NCBI RefSeq assembly: GCF_000003815.2
Contig: NC_049986.1
Span: forward strand, 14,063,957 to 14,127,956
Direction: 5' to 3'
Length of the DNA: 64,000 nt
Origin: Branchiostoma floridae
Lineage: Eukaryota; Chordata; Leptocardii; Amphioxiformes; Branchiostomatidae
Both the position numbers and the translations under genes were made by a program. The notes beneath the pieces are model-generated. The model worked only from the letters and a program-made list of their open reading frames with translations. It did not search any database and had not been told where the DNA came from. Position 1 is the first letter of the stretch; the number at the start of each line of letters is the position of its first letter. Below, piece by piece: positions 35,700 through 38,600 of the stretch.

Positions 35700-38600
35700 C
35701 TACTTGGCGTAGACTGTGGTCTTGTCCACCCTGTCCTTGTAGGTGCTCATCTTGTTTACTTTCAGGACCTGTAAAAGAATAACGCATTTCATGAGAAATG
35801 GTAGCCAACATTTTGACCACTAAACAGTATACAAACCAACGATAGCTTACCCGCCTTGCAGAAAATGGGCCTGCCAGCTTATTTATGGATTTGATTATTT
35901 ATCTATCAGCACATATTTAACAATCAAAAACAAATGAGAATAAAAAGAAAACATTCAGGGGCCTATGCGGCTTTCTCAATCATGAAAGCCACTCTTGAAC
36001 TACAGACTCTCTGAACACACTGTATCCTTGCACATTCTACCCAATATTACTGCTACTCCCTTTTAGTTGAAAGTATACCGTATCTAACACGTGTAACGTT
36101 CCGACCTTTCTGCCTACATCTATACACGAGATGAAACATAGTACAGTTCCAACTGTACGTACCTGCTCGCTGAACTCCCTGAGCCCGCCCTGGCCGCCCT
36201 TGTACTTGGAGATGAAGTGAGAGACCAGCTGCACGTCATCGTGCGCGTCGGCAGGACAGGCGCTCATGCCCGCCGCCTTCACCGACTGGGTGTCCGTGTT
36301 CTCACTCCCTGGGGCAGGGAAGAACAAGTGGACGGGGTTGGAATTGCAAACGATAAGATAAAGACGAGAAAGACGAGAAAATCTCATGTGTGCTAACATG
36401 CTCAATTCCAATTCTTTCAGTCTAACCTTCATCAACGTTTTGCTGACCTTGCACGCGTGATATGATTTATGTAGATTGATAGTCAGCTATTCCTTGCTTA
36501 GCCAGTTTATCCTGAGCCTGTCATGATGCAAAAGCCAGGATGCGCAGTTTCTCCAGGGATACAATACTTCACACTACAATACACTGCAACAATGTATTTC
36601 TGTGTCTACTAGGTTTGTTTGTTTGCCTCATCTCTGTGTACGTTCTCGTCATACTTTCATAGGTTTAACTGTTCCCAACATTAGGAGTATTGTGTTGTTT
36701 TCTATCTATTATTAGTTGTGCGTACAAGTACTACCTACCCATATATCCCACATTCCCGGTTACAAACGGTGTAAAGCAGGGTTGTGTACTAGCACCCACT
36801 TTGTTCAGTATCATGTTTACTGCGATGTTAACAGATGCATTCAGTGGAGGAGATGTGGGAATTGGCATCAGATACAGAACAGACGGTAAAGTGTTCAACC
36901 TTAGAAGACTACAAGCCAAAACCAAAGTGAAAACAGATATTGTCAGGGACCTTCTGTTTGCTGACGATTGTGCACTAAACGCCAGTTCAGAACCCAGCAT
37001 GCAGCACAGTGTTGACAACTTCTCAAACGGATGTAACAACTTTGGCCTGACAATTAGCACAAAGAAAACAGAAGTGCTCCATCTACCAGCTCCAGGAAAA
37101 CCCTATGTGGAGCCAACCATCACAGTAAACAACAAAAAACTCAATGTGGTTAGTAGATTCATTTACCTTGGCAGCACCCTCAACCAGAATGCTAACATTG
37201 ATGATGAAGTGGATTCCAGGATTGCAAAAGCGAGTGCTACCTTTGGCAGACTTCATGATAATGTCTGGAACAGGCGAGGAATTCGACTGGAGACAAAACT
37301 GCAGGTGTACAAAGCAATTGTTCTTCCGACACTTTTGTATGCATGTGAAACATGGACAGTCTACCGACGCCATGCCAAAAGACTCAATCACTTCCACACC
37401 ACCCGTCTTAGGAAGATTCTCAACATCAAATGGCAAGACAGAATTCCAGACACAGAGGTACTGACCAGCGCAGGTATGCCGAGTATCTACACCATGTTGA
37501 TGCAGTCCCAGCTCAGATGGTCAGGACATTTAGTCCGTATGCCAGACCACCGACTGCCCAAAAAACTGTTCTATGGTGAACTTGAAGAAGGTGCACGGCT
37601 ACGCGGTGGCCAGAAGAAACGCTACAAGGACTCTCTTAAAGCATCCCTGAAAGCCTTTGATTTAAAAACTGATTCCTGGGAGCATCTTGCCAGTGACCGG
37701 CCACAGTGGCGGCGTGCAGTTCAGAAGGGTGCCGTTACCTACGAGGGAACACGCAGAGCTACTGCCCAGCAGAAGAGGCAGGCCAGGAAGGAACGAGCAG
37801 CCAACCCCCCCTCGAGCATCACTTTACTTCCCTGCCCGCACTGCAACAGACACTTCAGAGCGAAGATAGGGCTGTACAGCCACCTGCGAACTCATTTCAC
37901 TACTTGAATGATGGACAAGATGATGACGAAAGCGGTCCTCGTCGACTCGACGGACGAACAACATTAGTTGTGCGTACAAGTACTACCTACCCATATATCC
38001 CACATTCCTCCATGTCAGCCCCAGCTCCTCCCTCCATTGGTCCAACACCTCCAGCTTGTTCTAGATGGGATATAAAACAATCATGCTGGTGTAAATATGG
38101 TCATGCCTTTATTAGAATAACATGGAAATGTCGGAATCCCCGGCGAATCTTGTATACTTAAGTATACACGCAAGAAATGTAGAGTCGTATATTGTAAAAT
38201 GATGGATGTATATCATAAAACGTGGTCCATTGTGTTGATACATATCGAAAGGAACAGCAAGATAAATCTTATGTCTAACCTACCTTGGTGTTCTCATGTA
38301 TCTTACAGCCCAGGGAGGCAGCCAGACGCCTCTGTACGACGTTCTCACCTTCCGCGATAATGCGGACCTGAGGAAAGTGAAGAGGCCGGTGAAATTTTTA
38401 TTTTAAAGACCTCACACTCTCATATCTCTTTCAGCCATGTTCATCTATTTTGGCAGTGCACGGCGATTGAAGAAGAAAGGCGCCATTTACAAACACGAAG
38501 GTTCTTTCACGAGACAGCTAGATGCAGATCTTGGGTTCTATGATGTTTGGAGCAACTTGTTTAGATATTCTATATTAGCGCCCCTTACCTCCACCAGATT

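Follow-up and report, generated by a model that had tools for sequence, protein, structure and literature searches.

What becomes of a gene when a retrotransposon inserts in one of its introns and the target duplication carries a second copy of a 5' splice site? The question is raised by CMAS in Branchiostoma floridae, in a stretch of 64,000 nucleotides analysed here at its full length (the window). A 1206-bp truncated LINE lies in CMAS intron 8 between two copies of a direct repeat (36711-36756 and 37963-38008), which are identical at 46 of 46 positions, start 1252 bp apart and hold the last 18 nt of exon 8 together with its GTAGGT donor. The preliminary description of this locus had reported exactly that arrangement, with a complete exon and donor on one side and an orphan exon tail and donor copy on the other, and had recognized a target duplication in it; on all of these points it was right. 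It had also read the insertion as one that should have destroyed the donor, and here our interpretation departs from it. This is an ordinary young intronic LINE insertion, in which an unusually long duplication happens to copy a splice donor. We consider it likely, with a rough probability of 0.87, that a young copy was inserted into intron 8 by target-primed reverse transcription (TPRT), antisense to the gene, and that splicing most likely still runs from 37990 to 36308.

CMAS occupies 35700..42474 on the minus strand of the window, with ten exons from ATG to stop and 421 encoded residues. In this model, which is sequence-based, all introns are GT-AG and the spliced frame is uninterrupted across the insertion. 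The predicted protein has a CTP_transf_3 domain (Pfam, 3.4e-33) and matches the solved structures of two mouse CMAS domains, 1qwj over residues 24-249 (1.1e-81) and 3ewi over residues 252-402 (1.7e-28). Its cytidylyltransferase domain and C-terminal HAD-like domain match animal CMAS. Exon 8 (37991..38060, 70 nt) is complete with acceptor and donor, the latter reading TGG/gtaggt at 37990, and gtaggt is also the donor of exons 5 and 7. Exon 9 lies at 36163..36308. Between them, intron 8 (36309..37990) measures 1682 nt with the insertion and 430 nt without it, and is now the longest of the gene, the others having 221-782 nt.

Two further features of the gene may be recorded here. HAD phosphatases have an aspartate motif, and where they carry it the HAD-like domain of this CMAS differs (exon 6, 38729-38589); the domain is probably not catalytic, as judged from its residues. 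Intron 4 contains an imperfect palindrome of about 349 bp (39616-39964) with a self-inverted match of 77.6% and ends reading TTATGTTACAATTTTAAGACCA, and this structure resembles a foldback or MITE element.

The LINE fragment itself (36757..37962, plus strand) is truncated at its 5' end and contains the end of a reverse transcriptase (RT), a sub-threshold C2H2 zinc finger and a short 3' UTR. A single open frame of 383 codons and a TGA stop (36756..37907, plus strand) accounts for the RT match (Pfam RVT_1, 1.8e-09), and the C2HC/C2H2 fingers near its C terminus stay below the Pfam cut-off. The stop codon is followed by 55 nt that end in GACGAACAAC without poly-A. An RNA hairpin in this 3' UTR was considered and rejected, its z-score being 0.40. 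The endonuclease domain is absent from the truncated copy. Wider searches with the fragment added little: no PDB relative was found at 0.01 (at a looser cut-off the best RT match was 8gh6, E 0.21), the sole NCBIfam match, to an RT model for group II introns, fell far short of the cut-off, and two pattern matches to viral contigs gave no confirmed relative. Within the window, blastn found no further copy and the best tblastn match had an E of 0.37.

Sister copies were sought across the assembly (513 Mb in 431 contigs, the window lying on contig C8). Six loci are 98.6-99.3% identical to the window copy over 1212 bp, and two more match it in pieces at 86-92% identity. The preliminary description had called for full-length relatives, and the search brought up two that come close: L009 and L013 reach nearly full length (about 4.1 kb), and in each of them a stop-to-stop frame stays open for 1101 codons. 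L009 encodes an Exo_endo_phos domain (1.2e-10), an RVT_1 domain (6.5e-28) and, at its end, a sub-threshold zinc finger. Given the frame and domains of these near-full-length sisters, the family is a young LINE whose single large frame includes an APE-type endonuclease. The features of a non-LTR retrotransposon mobilized by TPRT are all present, namely RVT_1, the APE-type endonuclease of near-full-length L009, a flanking target duplication, a shared 3' end and variable 5' truncation.

For a survey of the family, the last 200 bp of the element served as query, and 40 of 61 candidates were scored. Four of the 40 were left out, as L041 and two unfetched matches lack the 3' end and L016/L032 is rearranged; the other 36 were kept. 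Across these 36 copies the 5' ends are scattered. The 3' end is exactly GACGAACAAC in 20 of them, the window copy included, a count made on copies that were picked by their 3' end, those without one having been dropped.

Some copies show peculiarities of their own. L022, L023, L028 and L046 carry extra AC or ACA units past GACGAACAAC, in numbers that differ between copies. In L013 the first 225 bp or so of the element are inverted relative to L009, and in L011 a short inverted 5' piece is joined to about position 2085 of the yardstick copy; such inverted 5' pieces are what twin priming would give.

The comparison with sisters also bears on age. The nearest relatives of the window copy, L010 and L011, differ from it by 8 substitutions in 1212. 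Against all six sisters the window copy has three private substitutions in 1212 bp, or about 0.25%, a rough figure that is inflated by private sites of the source copy and excludes sites that vary among the sisters. Amphioxus heterozygosity is several percent, and the animal is probably highly heterozygous. If so, an insertion with so few private substitutions may well be polymorphic. The two copies of the duplication are identical, and we infer that the insertion is recent and perhaps still segregating.

When repeats of at least 24 bp are compared, and a microsatellite of TG and the tandem repeat with a 138-bp unit are set aside, the window has no other exact direct repeat as long as this one of 46 bp. 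It comprises bases 38008-37991 of exon 8 (18 nt) and 28 nt of intron 8. On the minus strand, the right copy (37963..38008) contains the real end of exon 8 and the donor at 37990, and the left copy (36711..36756) contains the orphan 18-nt tail (36756-36739) followed by GTAGGT at 36738. The last six nucleotides of the left copy, CATTCC (36751-36756), belong to the LINE as well, being present in the six sister loci, which read CATTCCCGGTTAC across the point where the window copy is truncated. As the target repeat ends in the same letters as the sisters have, the 5' join used a microhomology of 6 nt; the formal repeat is 46 bp, of which 40 bp are target-derived beyond doubt. At its other end, the repeat starts between T and A (36710/36711), with TTTT at -13 to -10 upstream.

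A skeptic might ascribe the 46-bp repeat, or the placement of the LINE, to the merging of two haplotypes during assembly, since the animal is probably highly heterozygous, as noted above, and the window has two runs of N, at 48.1 and 55.7 kb. The junctions argue otherwise, as they agree with those of independent sister insertions in T/A start, 3' end and microhomology, and each flank has one locus only, with no second one among the candidates scored. We see no apparent sign of an assembly error at the CMAS insert and regard an artefact as extremely improbable.

How unusual is a duplication of this length? A flanking repeat with a score of at least 7 accompanies 22 of the 36 copies; the 14 copies without one include the young L010 and L012, which have 6 and 4 bp. 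In 18 of the 22 the repeat is 7-13 bp long, one of the 18 having a mismatch. The other four are longer: 20 bp in L009, 36 and 38 in L013 and L053 (with 3 and 4 mismatches and in tandem-repeat surroundings), and 46 bp, exact, in the window. The window repeat is the longest among the 36 copies surveyed, an outlier at about four times the usual length for this LINE. As a control, the 3' points of the same 36 copies were displaced; of 2160 trials, 155 reached a score of 7 and 30 a score of 9, and none came to 46. With 7 reached in 155 of 2160, some repeats of 7-8 bp may be due to chance, and the family norm is a rough one. The start of the repeat falls at T/A in 14 of 22 copies including the window (13 of 21 sisters), compared with 7.7% in the control; the remaining 8 start elsewhere. 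Since 46 bp is well outside 7-13 bp, the second-strand step must have been atypical.

These observations can be assembled into a model of the insertion, in which the order of the nicks is what we infer. From the orientation of the LINE under TPRT, the endonuclease would have made the first-strand nick on the CMAS-sense strand at the T/A of 36710/36711, with 28 nt of intron between this site and the exon 8 donor upstream. Starting at the LINE 3' end, reverse transcription would then have halted after about 1.2 kb. The cut in the second strand would have fallen at a distance of 46 nt, at a point 18 nt into exon 8, where the end of the truncated cDNA could be joined through the CATTCC microhomology, and gap filling would have duplicated the 46 bp. 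Exon 8 would come through such a sequence of events undamaged, as would its own donor and the first 28 nt of the intron, and beyond the far end of the LINE the exon tail and donor would be present a second time. Splicing would still run from 37990 to exon 9 at 36308, over an intron that has become longer, and the copied donor would be left as an orphan.

It is at this point that the claim of a donor saved by its duplication can be weighed. On that account, the LINE hit the donor itself, which would have been lost without the long duplication, and this duplication also left behind a working spare. It is true that the donor lies within the duplicated stretch, that its two copies are identical and that the second-strand cut is inside the exon. 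The first nick, however, falls 28 nt into the intron at a T/A, as fits 13 of the 21 sister repeats, and so exon 8 and its donor would stay joined whatever the length of the duplication. A duplication of 10 bp would have the same outcome for CMAS, an intron insertion, and the donor hence needed no rescue; at no stage would it have been interrupted. Nor could the copy at 36738 serve to make normal CMAS, as direct splicing from it lengthens exon 8 to 1322 nt, and the frame then ends at a stop no more than two codons from the normal donor. We consider the rescue of a donor very unlikely. The 'spare 5' splice site' of the preliminary description, a copy 1252 bp on, is at best a poor spare: its use makes so long an exon with an early stop, and it could otherwise serve only to end a pseudoexon.

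A different concern is competition between the two donors, in which some CMAS mRNA would keep the LINE and be truncated, or would carry a pseudoexon that begins at an acceptor in the antisense LINE and ends at 36738. The 46-nt context of the two donors is identical. The copy lies nearer than 37990 to the acceptor of exon 9; its intron surroundings are those of the ancestral state, and it keeps the ancestral spacing of 430 nt, which would matter under intron definition. On splice-site scores, which are based on rough weights, the real exon 8 donor reaches 2.88, the second lowest of the nine CMAS donors, and is surpassed by donor-like sites in the LINE at 37166 (4.22) and 37465 (2.90) and by a native site of intron 8 at 36447 (3.47). 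By the same rough weights, several acceptor-like sites in the LINE, for example those at 37738 and 37046 in antisense, score within the range of real acceptors. Short exons between longer introns favour exon definition, however, and the coding exons of CMAS (69-203 nt) are shorter than its introns (221-782 nt, with intron 8 counted as 430). Neither AATAAA nor ATTAAA occurs in CMAS sense within intron 8. We regard competition between the donors as unlikely, and continued splicing from 37990 to 36308 as the better reading; the insertion most likely has little effect on splicing and is neutral.

In its general build, the family of the window copy may tentatively be called RTE-like. RTE and Bov-B LINEs likewise have one large frame with an APE-type endonuclease and RT (PMC13295347, PMC1291365 and PMC2887409, in the parts available), a short 3' UTR without poly-A and a repeat that often starts with A after T. 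The window LINE family differs in having a C-terminal C2H2-like finger. It differs from Bov-B in a second respect. According to the available part of PMC13295347, Bov-B insertions start at T/A and have a run of T some ten bases before it; in the present family the T/A start (14 of 22) is accompanied by TTT 8-14 nt upstream in 5 of 22 copies only, the window copy among them. The Tn-TA signature of Bov-B was accordingly rejected as a family feature, and T/A alone stands. The accessible portions of PMC5802833, PMC5753468 and PMC11175523 held nothing that fixes the clade of the LINE or the heterozygosity of the animal.

Published duplication lengths place the window copy in perspective. In the excerpts available, two schistosome SR3 RTE copies have duplications of 10-12 bp (PMC1291365), and of two lepidopteran RTEs one has 20 bp and the other 10 bp (PMC2887409). 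Among human- and chimpanzee-specific full-length L1 elements, the length distribution has its peak at 14-16 bp (PMC2912911, in part), and L1 duplications may extend to several hundred nucleotides (PMC1291365, likewise in part). A 'long TSD' class of L1 insertions (>20 bp) is recognized and was frequent in one HeLa data set, according to the accessible text of PMC4245944; like the window copy, these inserts combine a target duplication with 5' truncation and microhomology at the 5' junction. The window copy stands apart from them in that its 46 bp are long for its own family, where 18 of 22 repeats have 7-13 bp, and in that they span a splice donor. From these lengths, 46 bp is unusual for the family and within what LINEs do.

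Target duplications that carry splice sites have been described in introners, which recruit splice sites from their own duplications and so create introns (PMC9860276, as far as its available part goes). The likeness is that a 5' splice site lies in the duplication. In CMAS, by contrast, no new intron was made; the LINE sits inside an existing intron that has its own donor and acceptor, both kept, and measures 430 nt without the insert. Our literature search for splice sites copied by target duplications found no matching case, and one may still exist in print.

Two small things of use come out of the analysis. The recent copies of this LINE family have duplication lengths whose distribution can be measured, with the window copy as its outlier, and a single intron contains two identical 5' splice sites, a natural pair whose use can be read from RNA. 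It also corrects a trap in reasoning, as a splice site inside a duplication does not imply that the insertion threatened that site. It is tempting to speculate that the locus is a natural splice-competition allele, in which the LINE-side donor takes a measurable share of CMAS transcripts, by LINE retention or a pseudoexon, and lowers CMAS output in carriers. We think this distinctly unlikely. If it were true, two donors identical over 46 nt would compete in vivo on an allele that is segregating.

Three further features of the window may be listed. A gene part on the minus strand (52929-53459) matches Sialidase-1 (8du5, 1.1e-10, residues 27-98), with no Pfam match at 0.01; it shares its strand with CMAS, from which it is about 10 kb away, and would place genes for the removal and the activation of sialic acid near each other. 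On the plus strand, a large open stretch (13178-14827) matches the C-terminal domain of DAB2-interacting protein (PF12004, 5.4e-09). Finally, two tandem copies of a 138-bp unit lie at 58104-58389, 92.6% identical over 148 bp and with exact stretches of 52 and 32 bp.
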